Positions 6,460 to 64,000 of a stretch of 64,000 bases of DNA are shown here, one piece after another. The notes below the pieces were generated by a model that made no database searches, was not told the origin of the DNA, and was given only the letters and a program-made list of their open reading frames with translations. A program made the translations under genes and the position numbers. This DNA is from Mesodorylaimus sp. YZB2_4 (Eukaryota > Nematoda > Enoplea > Dorylaimida > Dorylaimidae): assembly GCA_030248295.1 (NCBI GenBank), contig JASANH010001344.1:270174-334173 (forward strand), written 5' to 3'. How positions within the stretch are numbered: the first letter of the stretch is position 1; every line of letters begins with the position of its first letter.

Positions 6460-6619
6460 CACGCACATACTCTGCCTCTTACCTAATTTATCACGCACAT
6501 ACTCTGCCTCTTACCTAATTTATCACGCACATACTCTGCCTCTTACCTAATTTATCACGCACATACTCTGCCTCTTACCTAATTTATCACGCACATACTC
6601 TGCCTCTTACCTAATTTAT
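6460..6619. repeat. 32-bp tandem repeat, five copies
   Basis: The unit begins CGCACATACTCTGCCTC and ends CTAATTTATCA. Five near-identical copies lie head to tail without spacers, so this is a minisatellite. It abuts the left terminal inverted repeat of the element at 6634. Confidence 0.9.
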
Positions 6620-6775
6620 CATCACCACATCATGGGGCCGTTGCATAACTAAGCCCTCCAACTCGTTTACGCCAACTGTATACCCATGTGCATATGAATA
6701 AGACAACTCCAACTCATTACGCCAACTCGCCGAACGCATATTGATATGTTGTGGTGTCTGCTAGAACTCCCGAAA

Positions 6776-16084: not shown

Positions 16085-16261
16085 CAGGCGGTGGGGAAGT
16101 GAGAGACCAAAGTCTCCGTGACAAAAATCCAGACTGAAAATACGCAAGCCTTGCGACTATACTGTACCTGCACTAGAAACATCAACTGGAGAGGTTGACG
16201 TCTACCAGCCAGGGAAGAGTATCGATCTCCTGACCGCCAGGAATGCTGGTTACACCAGCAA
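16085..16261 (+). repeat. dispersed repeat family B, copy 1
   Basis: Contains the family core: CTTGCGACTATAC, an AAACATCAAC/GAGAGGTTGACG hairpin, CAGCCAGGGAAGAGTATCGA and GAATGCTGGTTACAC. The same core recurs near 19.1, 24.8, 38.5, 55.0, 58.9 and 62.2 kb. Confidence 0.75.
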
Positions 16262-17099: not shown

Positions 17100-20000
17100 T
17101 TTGCCAACTAGATACCAAATTGGACATTTATTTCGTTGTGGATGGTAGTGGTAGCATAGGACCTGAGAATTTTGACAAGGTCAGAGCATTTTTGAAAAGT
17201 GTCGTCAGGACTCTTCCAATTGGCCAGAACGAGAATAGGGTTGGAATTATACAGTTCAGTAATATCAATGCCATGGAACTACAGCTGAATACATTTTATA
17301 ATGTGTCGAAAATAGTGGATGCTATTGATAAAATCAATTATCTATTCGGTAATACTGCCATCGGAGAAGTAAGTATAACGATTTTTCATGTTATACAAGT
17401 GTATGTAGCCACTACAGATGCGATAGAAGACATGACATCATATCAACTCATCCAAGGCTCACTTTACAAATACTCTGATTATTACATTCACACAATCGTA
17501 TCTTTTCGCTGACACGCAGGATACCATGTACAGTGCATACTGCATGTATGGTGTGCGTATAAATGCAGTTATACTGTAGGTGATAAATTCTCTTGTTGTT
17601 CTGTCGTAATATTCAGTATGGAGCGCTGTATTTATAAGTTTATGCGCATTTTTATGCTATATATTGCACATTAAAACCGCAATTCCTATTCATAGATTGC
17701 TTGGCAGAAACCTGTTCGTAGACTTGTTGAAACTGTAGTCAAGCACAATAATATACTGTACGTATAAATTTTTAATATAGCTGTATTTATGAAAACATAC
17801 AGTAGGAGAATTTGCCAAATGCAGGCATATCTCACTCACTGTCAGCATCACTTCGCAACAAAAAATCATGCCCAAAAGCGTGCATTATTTTTGTAGAGTG
17901 TGTCAAATCACTGTCTCACTTACGAATTGGCATTTCAGGCAATTCAATTCACCCTGGATGAAGGCTTCGCCAAGAAATCTGGTGATCGTGCGTGCAGTAC
18001 TGATGTCATGATCGTGATGACCGATGGCCAGGATGATGGTTTTCTGGGCATAAACAGACCACTGGAAGAAGCCTCGTGTCGACACATACAAATGATCGCC
18101 ATCGGTATCGGGGACGAGGTGGATGAGCAGGAGCTGCTGTTGATAGCAGGCGGTGATTCCAGGCGAATGTTCCATGTGGAATCGTTTCCGGACTTGATGT
18201 CCTTGGTGAAACCATTGTGTGCCCAGATTCAGGGTAAGGATGCTTGTGAGAAAGATCTCTAAAACCTAATCGTAAAGGCCTCTAATGTACTGAGTATGCC
18301 GTAAAACTGTTTATAATTCCACCCTAAAATACAGTAGTTTAATAAATATACTTACAGTAGTATAATAAATACAGTTCCTCCAAGGTAGCATGGAACACCT
18401 GAATAGTGCGACAGTGCTATGTGGTTTGCGGTAAAGCCCACTCAATGGACACACTGCCATGTCATGATTTTTAGCGCAGGATAAGAATAAAGTGGTAAAG
18501 CAACTAGAACTCTGTGCTCATTGAGCGAATGCTGATAAGGTGTTTAGGCTGACTTATTAGGCATGAATTAATGAGTTATTTGGTAGAACTTGGCCTCGAA
18601 CCTATTTGAAATAATGATTTCCCTTGGATATTGTTGGAGTATGCGTTAATTTGACTCTAGAGGCTTTTGTCTTGTCCAAGCTGAGAGAGTGAATATCGAT
18701 ATAAGAGGCTCTATTGGTCCTCTGTGGCATCTGAGAGCGTCACCCCGTCCACCCGCCATGGATCAGGTCGGAATACTTGGTTGGGTCCCCAAGTATTCCA
18801 GTGCGCTAGCGTGGTGTAAAAGTCTCACCAGCGTGGTGTAAAAGTCTCACCAGCGTGGTGTAAAAGTCTCACCAGCGTGGTGTAAAAGTCTCACCAGCGT
18901 GGTGTAAAAGTCTCACCAGCGTGGTGTAAAAGTCTCACCAGCGTGGTGTAAAAGTCTCACCAGCGTGGTGTAAAAGTCTCACCAGCATGGTGTAAAAGTC
19001 TCACCAGTGTCCCCATATGGACCCAGGCGTACTACAGTTGCTTATAAATTGCTTGTCTGTAACCAGCATTCCTGCTGGCGGTTGGAGATCGGTACCCCCT
19101 CACCCAGGAGGTGGGAGATGTGAGAGCGAAGTCTCTGGGACAATAAAGTTCGATTGAAGGAAGGTAATTCTTGCGACTACACCTGCAGCTGAAACATCAA
19201 GCCGAGAGGTTGGCGTCTCTTAGCCATGGGAGAGTGTCGATCTCGCGACCACCGGGAAGGCTGGTACATCAACCGCATCATTTGCATGGAAGGCGGTCTT
19301 CAAAAGTGAGCATACTGTAGCACATTCTTGCGTACTAGGAAAGCAATCGAATCCATGCGATGGTGACACTTGCCACAATGGGGGCACTTGCGTACCTCAA
19401 TTCAATTCGAACAAGTATACTTGCGCTTGTCAACACGGATATAACGGGACTTTCTGCGATAACAGTAAGTTACCCGTTCCTGGAGATATATGGGGTAATA
19501 TGCAGAGATGTCGATCAGAATCGATACATTACAGATATCGACGATTGTGCAAGCGGCCCTTGCATGAATGGCGGAACTTGTTATGATCGTGTTGGTGAAT
19601 TCTATTGCAATTGCACGAACGGTTATCAAGGCGATAGATGCCAGTTCCCCATATGTAAGTATATGACCCGCTGACAGATTATCAATGAGTCTTTGGTGGC
19701 ACCGATTTTGTTTACATACACTGTGTGTGCTGTTCTTGAGATCAGTTTCCTGATTATGCTGTCCCAAATCTCCACTGCGGCCAACAGAGTTATGTACCTT
19801 GGATAGGATCAAATCGGCTAATTTTTCTATTGGCCTCTGACCATGAGGTCGCTCCAACATCTCTACGTGTGCATACTCGTGCTAGCCTAGAAGTCTTCTC
19901 GAGCGCTTATGACTGGCATTAAATTAACGCGATGTGTCCTAAATAACGAAGCTTCCGGTAGCCGTTTTAAGCCAATCCTTTCTGATAGCAAGCTGGAAAT

Positions 20001-24784: not shown

Positions 24785-24934
24785 AGCGTGCCTAGGCGGC
24801 GGGAAGTAGTCTCTCTGGAGTAGGCAAGTCTTGCGACTATCCCTACGGCTGAAACGTCAACCCGAGGGGTTGACGTCTTCCAGCCAGGGAAGAGTATCGA
24901 TCTCCCGACCGCCCAGGAATGCCGGTTACACAAA
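24785..24934 (+). repeat. dispersed repeat family B, copy 3
   Basis: Core well kept: CAAGTCTTGCGACTATCCC, GAAACGTCAACCCGAGGGG, CCAGCCAGGGAAGAGTATCG, then AATGCCGGTTACAC. It is close to copies 1 and 4. Confidence 0.75.
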
Positions 24935-36172: not shown

Positions 36173-39100
36173 ATGGATATTGATTGGGATCGTTACAAAA
36201 GCACGCTAAAACGTGCATATTTCACCGAAAATTCATTTCTGCCACGCGAAAGCGAACAGTTTGACGATTATTGGAAATTTTTTGCCCAGTATTTACTCAT
36301 GGCTAAAAAGAAGAACATTACGGCCGAGCGTCGCCCTTCCAGCTCGGACGTAACATTGAACGAATTAGGCATACCGTCATCTAATTATTCCAAATATCAT
36401 CGTCAAGTAGTCGAGTTCGAATTAGATAAACCATCGCGTTACATGCTTCGTGAAATTCCATCAAAAGTTATATCCGAATTCGAATTTGCACTTTCGTCAT
36501 ATGTCGTTTTTTGTCAAAGACAGAAATTCCAAAAATTGAAAAAATTACGTCAAGGTCAGCGCTCGCTACCGATCGCACAATTTCGTGAAGAAATTTTGAA
36601 TGTTCTCAGTCGTAATTCGGTGATTATTGTGGCTGGCGATACGGGTTGCGGAAAATCCACTCAAGTTCCTCAGTATTTGCTGGAACACGGTTTCGATCGC
36701 ATCGCTTGTACTCAGCCTCGTCGACTAGCTTGTATTTCATTAGCTAAGCGAGTAGCTTTCGAAACGTTGAACGAATACGGCGATGAAGTAGCTTATCAAA
36801 TTCGATTCGAGAAAACTCGAACTTCTAAAACGAAACTTTTGTTTTTGACCGAAGGCCTTCTTCTTCGTCAATTAGCCACTGATCCCGATTTGTCGATGTA
36901 CGATGTCGTGATTTTAGATGAAATTCACGAACGTCATATTCATGGAGATTTTCTATTAGGCGTTTTGAAAAATCTTATTCAACGACGTCCAGAATTGAAA
37001 CTTATTTTAATGTCGGCCACGATCAATTTGGATCTTTTCTCATCTTATTTTCAAAGCGCACCCGTCGTACAAGTGCCCGGACGATTGTACCCCATCAAGT
37101 TACATTATCGGCCACTGAGTCCTGAAGAAACGAAATCTGAACGTATCGATCCTGGGCCTTATCGCCGGATTTTGAGCATGATCGATGAACAATATCCGAG
37201 TACAGAAAGGGGCGATGTATTGATTTTCCTGAGTGGAATATCGGAGATTTCTACTGTGGCTGAATCATTGAAGGTAATTGGGGAGACTATCCTCTTTCGA
37301 TATGTCAGGATTTGGTCACAAGTTTCAATGAAAATGGTGATCTTTCCCACTGCACCTGTCAAACGACCTTTGGGAGCGTTTTTCTAAATAATTCTGTGTG
37401 CCATTAAAAGTTGAGAGCTAGGAACGACAGATTTCCAGAAAAGGTTTGGAGTCAGTTTTTTGGAGCTCTTAATTCGCATCCTTTGGATCGGCATCCTTTG
37501 CCTCGCCTTCGCTGTACAGGTATCTTTCGATCAAAATGAATCTGTGTCTCTGTTTTAGGCTTACGCGGATGAAACATCTCGTTGGATCATCCTAGTCTTG
37601 CACAGCACACTTTCGTTGGAAGATCAAGATCGCGTTTTCGATGTATCGCCCGAAGGTATTCGGAAATGCATCCTTTCGACCAACATCGCCGAAACGTCGG
37701 TCACTATCGATGGTGTACGTTTTGTTGTGGATTCGGGCAAAGTCAAAGAAATGCGATTCGATTCTGAAACTAAAATGCATCAGTTGAAGGAAACGTGGAT
37801 TTCGCAAGCCAGTGCTGAACAGCGGAAAGGACGTGCTGGTCGTACTGGGCCTGGTGCGTGCTATAGATTGTACAGTCAAGCGCAATTCGACGAATTCGCC
37901 ACGTATAGCACGTCGGAAATTAAATTGGTGTCGTTGGAATCGTTGGTGTTGCAGGTACGAGCACGAAATCTAAGCTCTCACCCAGGTCGTAGCCTAGCGG
38001 GTTAAGGCGTCTGCCTCTCACGCGGAGTGCGCGCTCACAGGGGAGGGCTCGACTACCCGCCTGGGTGAAATATAATTGTCAAATATATGTGTTACTTAGC
38101 CCTCGAGTGTTCTGTACAGTGCTTGGCTATGAATTAAGTATGATAGGACGACATGACGCGGCAGCTTTCCTGTGTGCGTATCAACTAGGAGCATCGCCAT
38201 ACGAGGGCATCGTGCGACAGCACCAGCGTCCCAGGATGATACTGGGCGAGAAGGAAGGGACCTTTCCCACTGGTCCTCCACAACCAGTTTCCTGATTCTC
38301 TACTCGTTCGCGTCCGCCACTTGACCGCACCGGGTTAGTCGCCCTCTGAAGTCGGAATAGGACTGCGGGCCTCTTAGTCAGGGTTGTTGACCCAACCAAT
38401 GCGAGGCCAACGCCTTTACTTACTGAGCCATTGACCGGCTCCAGTTGCACACGTGTTGGCTTGGGGCATGAAACCAGGCCTGGCAGGCGTAGGAGGGAGG
38501 CGGCCGAGCGAAGTCGGCGGGACAAAAACTCCGACTGGAGTAGGATAGTCTTGCGACTATACCTACGGCTGAAACATCAACCCGAGGGGTTGACGTTTCC
38601 CAGCCAGGGGAGAGTATCAATTACTCTCTCCCACTCGCCATGGCCTACCAGGCGGGGGGTTACAGGCAATACTGTACATATGGGGCAATTTCCTCGACCT
38701 CGAAGTAGAATACAGCGCCAACACCCCTTCCATAAATTTTTCCAGTTTCGTGTTCTTTATTTTTAGATGTACAATTTCGGTCTGAACGATCCCCGGCAAT
38801 TCGAATTCATCGAGCCACCGGAAACGGCGAGTATCGAACGCGCGATCGATCATTTGAAAGATCAAGGCGCACTGACGGCCTCGAACGAGCTGCTCACACC
38901 ATTGGGTCAAATGCTAGTGAAATTACCTGTCGACGTGGCGATTGGGAAAATGCTGATTATGGGATGCTTATTTCGACAAGTGGAAATCGTTCTGACATCG
39001 GCGGCGGCGTTGAGTGTTCAATCGCCGTTCACTAATCGATCGTATCGGGATTTAGATTGTATGACGTTGAGGAAGGATTTGATGTCGGATCAGGGCGATC

Positions 39101-54785: not shown

Positions 54786-55280
54786 TCATATTAGCACGGC
54801 TGGGCGGACACCCTCAAACAGCAGCTTCCCTCTGCGCGTCTCCACTGGGAGCACCTCCACGCGATGGCATCCTGGACTGGACACCGACTTCTTTGGACGG
54901 TGGCGGGTGGGCTTTGAACCCTGTGTAACCAGCAGCCCTGGCGGTTGGGAGTAATCGATACGCTCCCCTGGCTGGGACGTCAACCTCTCGGGTTGATGTT
55001 TCTAGGGCAGGTACAGTCGCGAGACTTGTCTTCGGTCTCGACCATCTCCAGCCGTCTGGATGCGCTGGTTGCACCCATCAGGGTCGGCCAGCCGAGACTG
55101 TCCTGTCGTTTGGCTACCGTCTCTCCTCTCGGAGCACCTTGACAGTACCGGGTGAGCCATCAACAGCCTGGCGTGCAAGGTCAGAGAGGGTTTTATTGTG
55201 CGCGGGACGAGCTCATTCGCTGCCAAACAATACGGAAAGAAGAATGTCGAACTGCTGCATCACCGCGGCCGCTGTCTAGT
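54786..55280 (-). repeat. long dispersed element, copy with family B core
   Basis: Reverse complement matches 57856-58140 along both flanks (GCGGCCGCGGTG, CTTTCCGTATTG, CAAGGTGCTCCGAG, AGACAGTCTCGGCTG-like; GAAGTCGGTGTCC, CGCGTGGAGGTGCTCCCAG). This copy also holds a family B core (about 54900-55050) absent from the other. Confidence 0.75.
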
Positions 55281-56979: not shown

Positions 56980-59900
56980 TCATCTTTTCTTATACAAGCA
57001 AGGTTTCAACATTAGGTTCCTCATATCACGCTTTTTCGTGTCGGACACCTTCTCAAAGTCCATTTGCACGAAATAATCATCTGGAAGTTTGACCTGAAGT
57101 GAAAAGAAAGAACTCAGTCATCATGGACTACTCACATAGTAACCACAAGATCCACGATGCCTGAAGCTAATAAATCAAAAGAATCATACAAGGGACATCG
57201 GGCATCAGCCAGCCAGTGATAAGCTGCGATTAATTTCGACCAGCAAGGCGCAGTCACAAACTTGAGCTGTGATCACCCTCTCTATGCTGCACATTCTTTC
57301 CACGTCAGGTTAGGGGCCCGTTCATCAGCAGGTGTGATCAGGACAGGACTAAGAGTACATGCCTTCCTTGCTGCAAAGAAGAAAATAAAACTGCCCAGCG
57401 TCCAGTCCAGTCCAGCAAAATGTGCGGTCGACCTAGCAGCGTGGGTTTTCAGGGTCGGAATCAGAACTATAATCCTAGGTTCGAAGACACGAGTTTGCTT
57501 GCCATGGTTTTCTATACTGATATATCTACAACACTAAGCACCTGAGGATTTGCAGAATCAGGATGACCGAAAGTAGCTGATCTGCTGCAGCAAAGGGAAA
57601 CAAATCTGATCGCGAGTGACTCCATGACCACATACGTCAGTGATCAATAACACTATTCGCCTGTGAATTATAAACAGTCATGTGTGTGCACACGCATGCA
57701 CCAGTCACCTGTGCACCATGCGTGAATGATCGGTGACACTATTCGCCCATGCACTATACTGTCACGCAGAAGACAAGTAGTGTACAGGTGGAGGAGCGCG
57801 AAGGTCATTGTCGCCTTACATGCCGACATGCACATGCTCACTTCCAACTTCGAATATGCGCGGCCGCGGTGGTGCATCGGTTCAGCATTCGTCTTTCCGT
57901 ATTGCTTGGAAGAGAGTGGCTGGAGCCGTGGGTGACTCAATCGGTACCGTCCAGGTGCTCCGAGTGGAGAGACAAAAGTCAAGCGAGTAGACAGTCTCGG
58001 CTGTCGAACACCGACAAGGTTCGCAGCCCACCCGCCATCGTCCGAGGAAGTCGGTGTCCTGTCCAGGATGCCCTCGCGTGGAGGTGCTCCCAGTGGAGAC
58101 ACGCAGAGGGAAGCTACTGTGTGCGCTAGTCCCCGCACAGCCCTGTTTAGAAGATTTGACTGCTGGGAGGGTGAGGGCAAAACGAGCTTCGGCCCACAAA
58201 ATTTAAAACAAAAACCTTCGAATATGCCACCGACACTAAAGCACTAGCTGATCGGGGGGCCCTGCTCGAAGGAGCAACATGCTTCGAATTGACACGTAGG
58301 TAATTCCAAACCTGATCCCCCCCCAACAGTCGTGGCCGTGCCCCTCGACCTCGTTTGGTGGCTACTACTTACATTCTTCAACATTTGGAATCCCATTTTC
58401 TCCACAGCTCGCCTGAATCGTCCGATCGATTCAAATCGACTGCGTATCTCTGCTATCTTCATGACGCCCCTAAAGTGCACGAAAAAAACAATGAATGCAA
58501 GCTCAAATATTCTGCCCATTTTCACGGCCCTCTGCATCTTCTCTCGGGGTAATGACCCGTTGCAGCATCAAGTTATCAACTGTACTATAGAACAGGTTTA
58601 CAGTACAGCAAGTCTTTCGGGGGAAGAATCGCTTGATCGACTAAAATCCGCACAGCATAGACGGATCAGTCAATGATCCTTCCAAACCATTTTGGAACTC
58701 CAGCTTGAGGACAGACTCTGCAGACGATTCGCCCGCATTACTGCAACCTCCTAACCCATGAATGAATATTTACTCATACTTGTGTGCACCATTTCAATGG
58801 GCAAGCCTGGTGGCGGGCGCAGGATGGAAGTCGAAAAAACTCCAACTTAACCAGGCAAGTCTAGCGACTAGACATGCGACTGAAACATCAACCCGAGAGG
58901 TTGACGTTCCCCAGCCAGGGGAGAGTAGCGATTACTCTATCCCACGCTATGGTCTACCAAGCATGAGGGTTACACATAATCAAGCCTGAATATGCCCCAT
59001 GGTCATTTGGGTGTATCTGTGTGCTGCTAAGAACTGTGCTTTCTACTCTTCAAACAGTGGAATTCGAATTGTAGACCCCTTCATAATTTTCTCGGCCCTT
59101 TTTTCCAAAAAATAAACTGGAGTCATTCAGGCGCTTCACACCGCTTTTCCAGCAGATGCTACGTACCATTTACGCATGTGCGTAGTATATCTGCGTACTC
59201 TGCGAAGGGTAAAACCATGACCCCCATTACGGTGCCACTGTCACAAAGCATTTTACTCACCCTTTCTTCAAAATTCTGTTCGCTTCAGCGACATAATCAA
59301 CCAAATTCGTGCCCATTAGCGACAAGCAGAACACGCACGTGTCCGCACTTCCATCCTCCACAGGCACCTGATGAAAAAAGAAAGAAATTGCTTCAGTGAC
59401 AGACCCTTCACTTACTGCAGACTACCAGACAGTCATTGTCATGCTCAGCGTGTGGGCAAACCCTGGCTCACATGATTTTGTCAAGGCGGAATACAGACAG
59501 ACCAGTCGCGACTTCCGAACAAGCTGACCAGGAATCGTGCATGAAACTTCCTGCTTGCGGTGAGGTTTCTACACGATTCCTGGCCAGGGAACGAAGTTAG
59601 TAAAATGAAGAAGAGTGCAAGCAAAGCTTCCCAACCAACAAGGATCCATTAATCGACCAATCCTTGCCGATAGAGCGACTTTTGATTACGCCTGCAGGAG
59701 AGGTGTGAAACAACATCAGTTCCCTGAACCAGAACTCGTGGCTACGTTGGGTGAAATCCAATATGGCCACCCCACAAGCCTTGTGTACTCACATGAGCAA
59801 TATCCGCTGGCACAACTCGATTATTGATGGCCACCAAATCGAACGAATGTACTTTTTGTTTGACACTGGCCGCGAGACGTGCTTCACCGCATCCCATGTC

Positions 59901-61116: not shown

Positions 61117-64000
61117 ATGAGTTCGTCATCATTGAACGAGAAATCGCTTCGTGTGGGATCTCGAGTGCGATTGACTGGTACGTTGCAACAGTTTTTACAA
61201 GGTCGAACAGATTTTCAGAGCCCCGTTCGGTGAATTTTTACTGTCTGATTAACACATTTTGCTCATGTTATCTTATAACGTTAGAAAATAGGTGGATGAC
61301 TTTGATTCGAAAGTTGCATAGGATTTCGGAATCTTCGCTGATGACTCATCGATACAGTAGTGATTCACGATCGATATAGATCCCGAGTTTTCGTCAAAAA
61401 ATTGAGTTTCTGTGGAGCAGAAGACGTTCAATTACATTGCAAATAGAAATTTTTGCAGGATACTTCTGTGCAGGTACTGTTGTACCTTTCTCTAAATCTG
61501 CGAAATTATTTCTTTTCCAAAAGGAGGCGTGTCATGATGCATGCTTTACTTCTACACCGAAGATGATAGATTCAGATATAACTAGTTTAATTATTAATAG
61601 CGACCCGTTATCGCATTTGCTTTTGTCAAAGTTGAGTAAAAGCCCATACGCTGAAAAATTCAAATTTAGAAATGGCGGGAAGGTTAAACCTCATTCATAT
61701 ATTTGCACACACCTATTTAAATTTTTACTTGGTTTTGACGATAATTTTAGAGAAAAATCTGTTGGGCACAGTCGCTTACGTCGGTACGACTCTATTCTCG
61801 CAAGGTAAATGGATTGGCGTGATTTTGGACGAAGCGGCGGGGAAGAATAATGGAAGTGTGCAAGGGAAAGAATATTTTAGATGTAACGAAAATCACGGTA
61901 TTTTTGTCCGACCTGGACAAGTAAGCGAAGAGGTGGTATACTCCGTCATCGCAGAAATCAATATTTTTGGTTTTTGCTTCAGGTGGTGTCATTAGACGAT
62001 GAGAACGAGAATCTACCAGGCGGTGGTGGCGATGCGCCTGCGAAGGCAGAGGAGAAGGTTGCCAGCGGATTGCGACAACCACAAGCTACTAAGAGGCCGA
62101 TGGCTAAGGGTAAGCCATGACCCAATTTCATCATAGGAGGCCTCTGATGCATCCATGGCTGGCAGGCGTAGCAGAGAATGTGGGTCATGAACTCTGACTG
62201 GAGCAGGCAAGTCTCGCGACTGTACCTGCCTGCGGCTGAAACATCAACCCGAGGGGGTGACGGTTCCAGCCGGTGGAGTAGCGTTCGTTCGGGATCATTA
62301 TTTTCGGGATCGGGACAGGATCGGGATTTTGTGAAGAGAGCGCTTTTCATTGGCTATAGATGACCTACAACCCACCCTGAGTAGCCAGCAAATGAAAAGC
62401 CACAGATTACCTTTCCTTGGATAATTTTTAGTGCAGTATTTATCATTGCATTCAAAATCAGGAAAGCGAAGAATCAGTTACAAATTAGCAAACAAATCCC
62501 TTCCTTCCCCTCTATCAATTCAATTATCCGCCAAGGTCTCTATATTTCCCCTTCTGAAACATTTTGATGGCCATGACCATCTGAGTCAGTGTCAAGTAGC
62601 GTTCGTTCGGGATCCCGATCCCGATAAAAAATGGTCGAGTTTGAATGTTGTGGAGATGTGTGAAGAAGGAGAAGGGGAGAGGAAGGGATCAGGAAGGGAG
62701 TGTCCCAAAATGTTAAGCTGGAAAAACTTTGGTGGATGATTAAACTGGTAAAGAGGAAGTGAGGGATTTGTTTGCTAATTGGTGACTAATTTTAGGTCTT
62801 TTCGCTTGCCTGATTTTGAATGCTATGATGAATACTGCGCAAAAAAGTTTTTAGTTCTATATTTGCTGGCTACTTGGGGAGGGTTGTAGGTTACCTACAT
62901 CGAAGTAAAAGTGAAAAAACAACACTCTAAAAATCCCGATCCCGGCCGGGATTGAGCGAATCCCGATCCCGAAAAAAATGATCCCGAACGAACGCTAGTG
63001 TCAAGCAGCAGGTCGCCATCTAATTATGGCAAATGCGGGCACTAACTATAACCAACTGGGCGCAAATCGTTCGTCAGAAAAAGCAGGACTTGTGCATTTT
63101 ATGGGAGTAGTTTTATCCGATCATGCCATTATCACCCCTACAGCTTGTTTCCCATAAACCAGCCCCATTCCCTGTTGCAATATAAACATTCTATCTCCAC
63201 AATATTCAGTCCCAATCCCGACCACTTTTGATCGGGATCGGGTTCGGGAGGGGCAATCCCGACCGGGATCCCGAACGAACGCTACAGTGGAGATCAATAT
63301 TATCTCTCACTCGCCATGGCCCGCAGGCGGACTACATTGTCCAAGTAGTGTCTGGTCTGGACTACTTGTGCATGGCCTCATTTGTTCATGGACTACTTTT
63401 TTCGCCCCAACTAGGGAAACTAAAAACATCTGGGATGTCTCGACTGTCCGGTGTACAGCAAAAAAACCAAAACCTATCGTAAAAATTTCAGTTTCTCATA
63501 CAATGCAAAATATATTTATTGTAAAATTCAAACTTAAGCGTCTGATTAGTCAGAAAATCTGGCCGGATATTTGGAACTGGATGACCGCATATAGGCTGTT
63601 GATACCTTTGTGATAAGATGCCGTACCGTCTTGATACCTTAACAGCTCTATTCTGCTTTTAGGTGACGAGTCGAGCACGAAAGAACCATCGCCAGGCGCC
63701 GAGAGCAAAATGAAATTACCGACTTCTATGGTAAGTCCACACAATTTGTGTTCATATTTTCTAGAAAATACATACTTTTGTTTTAGAAATCTCGAATGAC
63801 TCCATCTGGATCAACTGAAAGACTGAAACAAAGCCCGAGCGTCGAGAAATTGTCTACTAGCATGCGTTCTAGTCCGAGCGTGGAGAAATTAAGCCATGTC
63901 AAGGAATCACCAGGTGAAGCAGAATCGACATCAAAAAAAGCTGCCGCGACGAAAAGCGGCATCGTGGCACCATCGAGTGCAATTAAAGAACCAAAACGAT
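61117..64000 (+). CDS. DCTN1: dynactin subunit 1 (p150-Glued), 5' part, runs off the window
   Basis: Largest dynactin subunit, which links dynein to microtubules and cargo. Exons 61117-61177, 61751-61920, 61983-62109, 63663-63730 and 63787 onward; phases agree. The N-terminus [20 protein letters not shown] opens the CAP-Gly domain, which continues [17 protein letters not shown], then GKNNGSVQG, and [12 protein letters not shown]. The GKNNG motif that binds EEY/F tails is intact. After it comes the Ser/Pro/Lys-rich basic region ([18 protein letters not shown] twice). Coiled coils would follow beyond the window. The small first exon was chosen because it completes the CAP-Gly strand and joins in phase. 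A frame at 61546 was rejected. Intron 3 (1.55 kb) contains nested transposons. Confidence 0.93.
62150..62278 (+). repeat. dispersed repeat family B, copy 7, 5' part (interrupted)
   Basis: Core CAAGTCTCGCGACTGTACC, GAAACATCAACCCGAG, CCAGCCGGTGGAG, cut at 62278 by the transposon at 62279-63284. The remainder resumes at 63293. Confidence 0.75.
62279..63284 (+). mobile_element. outer hAT-like short TIR transposon
   Basis: Begins TAGCGTTCGTTCGGGATC and ends with GATCCCGAACGAACGCTA. It is flanked by 8-bp target duplications CGGTGGAG (62271-62278) and CAGTGGAG (63285-63292), 7 of 8 identical. Without the inner insertion it is about 600 bp. CGGGATC motifs repeat under both ends. No transposase is encoded, so it is non-autonomous. 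Confidence 0.85.
62597..62997 (-). mobile_element. inner hAT-like short TIR transposon, inverted inside the outer copy
   Basis: 401 bp, same TAGCGTTCGTTCGGGATC termini, with exact 8-bp duplications GTGTCAAG at 62589-62596 and 62998-63005. Its reverse complement matches the outer copy along its length (for example ACCTACAACCC, AGTAGCCAGCAAAT, TTAGCAAACAAATCCC, ATCTCCACAA), so the two belong to one family inserted in opposite directions. Confidence 0.88.
63293..63345 (+). repeat. dispersed repeat family B, copy 7, 3' part
   Basis: Continues the interrupted copy after the transposon: ATCAATATTATCTCTCACTC, GCCATGGCCCGCAGGCGG, matching 38600-38655 in copy 4. Confidence 0.65.

Follow-up and report, generated by a model that had tools for sequence, protein, structure and literature searches.

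Two short elements, one inserted into the other, lie near the end of a 64,000-nucleotide stretch of the Mesodorylaimus sp. YZB2_4 genome (hereafter the window; C117:270174-334173), and both are almost certainly non-autonomous MITEs derived by internal deletion from transposons of the hAT superfamily with a full length of ~2.66 kb. At 401 and 597 bp, both are non-coding, carry terminal repeats, have many copies and show homology to the ends of a full-length element, which are traits of MITEs.

Structure of the nested insertion

The inner element (62597-62997, forward strand, 401 bp) is flanked on both sides by the exact 8-bp duplication GTGTCAAG, the left copy (62589-62596) being part of the outer element and the right copy lying at 62998-63005. 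The outer element spans 62279-63284 on the reverse strand and measures 597 bp once the inner element and one duplication are removed; relative to the transposase gene described below, its first part (62279-62596) is the 3' half and its remainder (63006-63284) the 5' part. The duplications of the outer element, CGGTGGAG on the left (62271-62278) and CAGTGGAG on the right (63285-63292), match at seven of eight positions. An 18-bp terminal repeat, TAGCGTTCGTTCGGGATC, is identical at all four ends (62279-62296 and 63267-63284 in the outer element; 62597-62614 and 62980-62997 in the inner). The bodies of the two elements face in opposite directions and can be aligned at 69% identity over 292 columns (gaps counted), with two further, shorter matching segments. 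Subterminal CGGGATC/GATCCCG repeats cluster at the ends of both MITEs; the window's first 62,000 bases have six of them. Nesting, boundaries, termini, both 8-bp duplications and the opposite orientation were thus read in the sequence just as a preliminary description of this DNA had claimed.

Copies in the genome and target-site duplications

The genome searched was the 145.1-Mb assembly of 1,067 contigs. With the inner element as query, 628 first-look candidates were obtained and 40 of them scored; apart from the inner element itself, the 39 best matches were 86-92% identical to it, and seven further matches comprised the outer element (68%) together with short terminal fragments. The exact 18-bp terminus occurred 388 times genome-wide (191 + 197) and a reversed control pattern 0 times, which ruled out chance termini; with up to two mismatches allowed, 1,002 occurrences (504 + 498) were found, against 1 + 2 for the control.

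Target-site duplications were examined in a non-random sample of 60 loci, composed of the 30 best inner-element matches and, from contigs C1-C5, the first 30 sites with an exact terminus. Termini were paired if neither had more than three mismatches and the distance between them was under 2,500 bp, and sequence-identical elements were merged, leaving 46 elements; a partner terminus within the tested limits was absent at six of the 60 loci (L027, L029, L033, L049, L058 and L059). The 8-bp duplication was exact in 26/46 paired copies, had one mismatch in 10/46 and two or more in 10/46, and exact duplications of other lengths were seen in 1/46 each for 3-6 bp and in 0/46 for 7, 9 and 10 bp. When flanks were re-paired at random, at most one mismatch was found in 0.057% of 89,978 pairs, versus 36/46 observed. 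The genome-wide search with the 401-bp inner element that had been proposed from the sequence alone returned many further copies, and among the 46 paired elements most had 8-bp duplications; the prevalence of another duplication length, which had been named as evidence to the contrary, was not encountered in this sample.

Base preference within the duplication (38 sites, symmetrised) amounted to T at 46% in positions 2 and 4 and A at 46% in positions 5 and 7. The consensus of Ac duplications is nTnnnnAn. That of Buster elements is given as nnnTAnnn (PMC3517528). The preference observed here is weak and mixed, and fits both patterns weakly.

Inner and outer element belong to two subfamilies, of ~405 bp and 664-686 bp, respectively. 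The inner element clusters with 33 elements of 369-455 bp (these 34 copies diverge by 8.7% on average) and is at least 5.0% different from any other copy of this subfamily, whereas the outer element groups with L031, L036, L046 and L054 (664-686 bp), with which it shares 94.6-96.1% identity without gaps and which are 96.8-98.2% alike among themselves. Of the earlier view that both were copies of one family with the same terminus, the common terminus stands, but the two are not one MITE. A further element, C3:1775581-1775633 (L050:1501-1553), is only 53 bp long, with two perfect 18-bp termini, 17 bp between them and the exact 8-bp duplication GCTCTGAG; it is either a very small mobile form or the result of a deletion after insertion.

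Full-length hAT elements with the same termini

The genome was searched for hAT dimerisation domains, with 149 matches at E <=1; 30 of these were cut as loci, and one, L082, had an exact terminus in its ~1.5-kb flank. A full-length relative of the MITEs was identified at C237:124588-127249 (2,662 bp); both of its 18-bp termini are exact, and its 8-bp duplication is ATTCAGAA. Its CGGGATC/GATCCCG repeats number eight on the left and four on the right, with none between bases 77 and 2605. Terminal inverted repeats of hAT elements are short, spanning 5 to 27 bp (PMC3517528), and those found here are 18 bp long and perfect in the inner element, the outer element and the C237 copy.

A single 677-codon open frame covers most of the C237 transposase gene. 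The 635 C-terminal residues encoded by this frame match the Pfam model Dimer_Tnp_hAT (PF05699) at 6.5e-15, with 55.1 bits against a cut-off of 21.4, and the Hermes transposase at 2.8e-18 to 2.9e-18. The stretches TTDLW, RDSGSN and SSEREF align to TIDLW, TDRGAN and ASERTF of Hermes and provide a catalytic D-D-E core like that of Hermes. Hermes structures (PDB 6dww, 8edg and others; four distinct sequences) were the only solved relatives found; the alignment is limited to a central stretch and the C-terminal dimerisation region. A hAT RNase-H model scored 13.5 bits on the C237 transposase, below its cut-off of 27. An N-terminal BED-like region was recognised by eye and contains an in-frame stop; no Pfam BED match was found in the 45-residue piece that follows this stop.

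The C237 copy itself looks defective because the frame that begins at element base 308 meets a stop at codon 20, after which it is open to the next stop at codon 698; translation from a later start, or a sequencing error at the stop, would alter this reading. A second full-length copy, at C1061:1137-3805 (2,669 bp), has an exact 8-bp duplication, GTCTATAA, and a left terminus with a mismatch. Its transposase is divided over two frames with two stops; identity to that of C237 is 98% for residues 1-563 and 96% for the remainder. As assembled, both full-length copies look defective, through stops or a frame break. A search for an autonomous copy with a hAT transposase and the same termini had been proposed from the sequence of the nest; full-length copies with such a transposase and such termini do exist, but the two that were found appear defective.

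In a protein search, C237 and C1061 were the only matches of at least 300 residues above 47% identity among 69 scored of 255 candidates. More distant hAT genes were found on C464 (46%, with stops) and C860 (47%, C-terminal part). Three further hAT transposase frames, each free of stops and 607-629 residues long, lie at C813:3670-5346, C330:78930-80555 and C25:106264-107970 and are 31-33% identical to the C237 transposase. No terminus with fewer than four differences was found in the flanks of L078 (C813), L081 (C330) and L084 (C860).

Eight-bp duplications are not unique to hAT elements, and no more than a weak base preference is seen across the eight positions, as would also be expected if the nest consisted of MITEs from another superfamily with 8-bp duplications (Merlin, P, Zisupton/KDZ or Novosib) that merely resemble hAT. 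This reading is vanishingly improbable and was rejected, as a hAT transposase lies between the termini of the nest family in two full-length copies, each with an 8-bp duplication, and both MITEs hold sequence homologous to the 3' end of the hAT transposase gene. The two copies are at separate loci, which makes it unlikely that both are chimeras. The hAT assignment, previously drawn from duplication length, is thereby supported: one full-length element has the same termini, an 8-bp duplication of its own and a hAT transposase, and another copy of this kind exists.

Relationship of the MITEs to the full-length element

Both ends of the full-length element are represented in the inner element: the last 290 bp of the former are matched at 75% by inner bases 119-401, and parts of the first 110 bp, in two segments, by inner bases 1-61. 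Similarly, bases 163-597 of the reversed outer element match the last 492 bp at 67%, so that the outer element still contains a decayed 3' coding piece of the transposase gene, and its bases 15-150, likewise reversed, match full-length bases 33-160 at 77%. Comparison was extended to 45 elements (43 from the sampled loci plus the inner and outer elements, with the 53-bp copy left out), of which 43 matched the full-length element in its 5' as well as its 3' end region. The other two, L034 and L039, match the C237 copy at one terminus only.

Nearly all of L034 and L039, together with inner bases 62-118, have no match in the C237 copy, a feature that would suit MITEs that arose apart from the transposase gene, acquired their termini by convergence or capture and were only moved by a hAT transposase. 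Such an origin is nevertheless highly unlikely, given that the alignments of inner bases 119-401 and of reversed outer bases 163-597 run across the end of the transposase gene into the 3' terminus, and that matches to both end regions are so general among the elements compared. Internal deletion of a hAT transposon is the reading that we retain. The 3' parts of the MITEs are only 66-76% identical to the C237 copy, and C237 can therefore not be regarded as their direct parent. Since the full-length copies appear defective and the 3' part of C237 differs from those of the MITEs by roughly one-quarter to one-third, movement of the MITEs was probably brought about by a related but diverged transposase with the same termini.

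Empty sites and order of insertion

Paralogous empty sites, which the preliminary description had suggested looking for, were found for both layers of the nest. For the inner element, all four relatives of the outer element (L031, L036, L046 and L054) are uninterrupted and carry a single CTTGACAC, the complement of GTGTCAAG, and the C237 element reads ATTGACAC at the position that matches the insertion point. For the outer element, its flanks were joined without the element and one duplication and used as query. A match at 38519-38655 of the window (forward strand; 79% over 141 columns) crosses the junction and represents an unoccupied copy of the repeat that the outer element entered; it is the only one of six window matches to cross the junction by more than 1-2 bases, the other five ending at or before it, to within one base. 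The repeat copy that was entered lies on the forward strand to the left (62182-62278) and right (63293-63330) of the outer element.

As read from these junctions, the nest is composed of three layers, namely a dispersed repeat, the outer element and the inner element. The side-by-side position of two bodies in opposite orientation could also be produced by a local inverted duplication or an assembly artefact, with no insertion at all. We consider this extremely unlikely: inner and outer element each have their own 8-bp duplication, the bodies are only 69% alike and so do not stem from a recent duplication, and a local inverted duplication was rejected on the empty sites of both layers. Insertion of one MITE into another remains the preferred explanation, and the earlier claim that the outer element came first holds from the nesting itself. 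The argument then offered for that order, an exact inner against a 7/8 outer duplication, is weak evidence and adds little, because 10/46 elements have one mismatch. Divergence alone would not have given the order either, as the relatives of the outer element are more alike than the members of the inner element's subfamily.

The nest lies in a predicted intron of a CAP-Gly gene (62110-63662, forward strand; boundaries from GT/AG signals only), with an exon encoding the CAP-Gly domain (1.2e-24) on one side and further likely exons on the other. The dispersed repeat is very abundant, with 2,738 first-look candidates; among the 40 scored, 39 other places were 94-98% identical to most of 38500-38680 (roughly its first 165 bp). 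Copies in the window were seen at 16161-16238, 19144-19254, 24804-24914, 38500-38680, 54963-55031 (reverse) and 58835-58945. Same-strand pairs 417-434 bp apart were found at C136:194893-195491, C29:632881-633479 and C293:81551-82131, an arrangement that would suit either a tandem unit or the terminal repeats of some larger element. Elsewhere in the window, tandem arrays of 22-bp units (18808-19010) and 32-bp units (6460-6621) were observed, as were inverted repeat arms ~3 kb apart that are 76-86% complementary (54801-54924 with 58014-58137, and 55078-55167 with 57925-58014) and possibly belong to another DNA transposon. The cuticle-collagen N-terminal family, typical of nematodes, had 133 matches in the genome, which points to a probable nematode, and SL1 RNA was not found among 50 scored of 31,302 candidates.

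Discussion

Several described hAT systems resemble the nest family. Mar is a hAT (Buster) MITE family of Drosophila willistoni that likewise comprises short elements with terminal inverted repeats and 8-bp duplications, explained as internally deleted forms of a full-length element of which relic copies survive (PMC3517528). Mar has 11-bp CAG(G/A)GGTAGGC termini and an nnnTAnnn duplication consensus (PMC3517528), in contrast to the longer TAGCGTTCGTTCGGGATC termini, subterminal CGGGATC repeats, weak mixed duplication preference and two length subfamilies of the nest family. Ac/Ds of maize combines an autonomous element with internally deleted, non-autonomous derivatives that have common termini and some subterminal repeats (PMC3260210). 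The nest family is alike by description in that deleted derivatives keep both features, whereas the termini of Ac/Ds are 11 bp rather than 18 bp long (PMC3260210). BuT2, of the Tip group of hAT, is close to the C237 element in size (2,775 bp) and has short termini, 8-bp duplications and a 643-aa transposase; its termini are 12 bp and its gene has five exons, unlike the single frame that holds most of the C237 gene (PMC3942097). The terminus strings of the nest family had no match in literature text (transposon libraries such as Dfam and Repbase lay outside the scope), and none of the literature on the topic and on hAT groups, surveyed by titles and abstract openings, was recognised as describing it. 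The family may thus be undescribed.

In the mechanism that we propose, a transposase supplied in trans would bind the termini and the subterminal CGGGATC repeats, cut the element out and integrate it elsewhere; a staggered cut of 8 bp in the target, once filled in, would leave the target-site duplication. A dispersed repeat was already present in the intron when an outer element of the 664-686-bp subfamily entered it, and an inner element of the ~405-bp subfamily later entered the transposase remnant inside the outer element in the opposite orientation. A bolder proposal is that the transposase needs almost only the termini, that the 53-bp element transposed as such, and that termini and CGGGATC repeats alone govern cross-mobilisation. 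We regard this as unlikely; if true, MITE interiors that are at least a quarter different behind invariant termini would reflect such cross-mobilisation.

Overall, the nest is a well-supported case of real hAT-derived MITEs, an ordinary kind of mobile DNA that leaves knowledge of hAT elements and MITEs unchanged. With two subfamilies, full-length relatives, duplications and empty sites for both layers, it provides a nearly complete and checkable case of MITE origin, and it helps to annotate repeats in the genome of Mesodorylaimus sp. YZB2_4.
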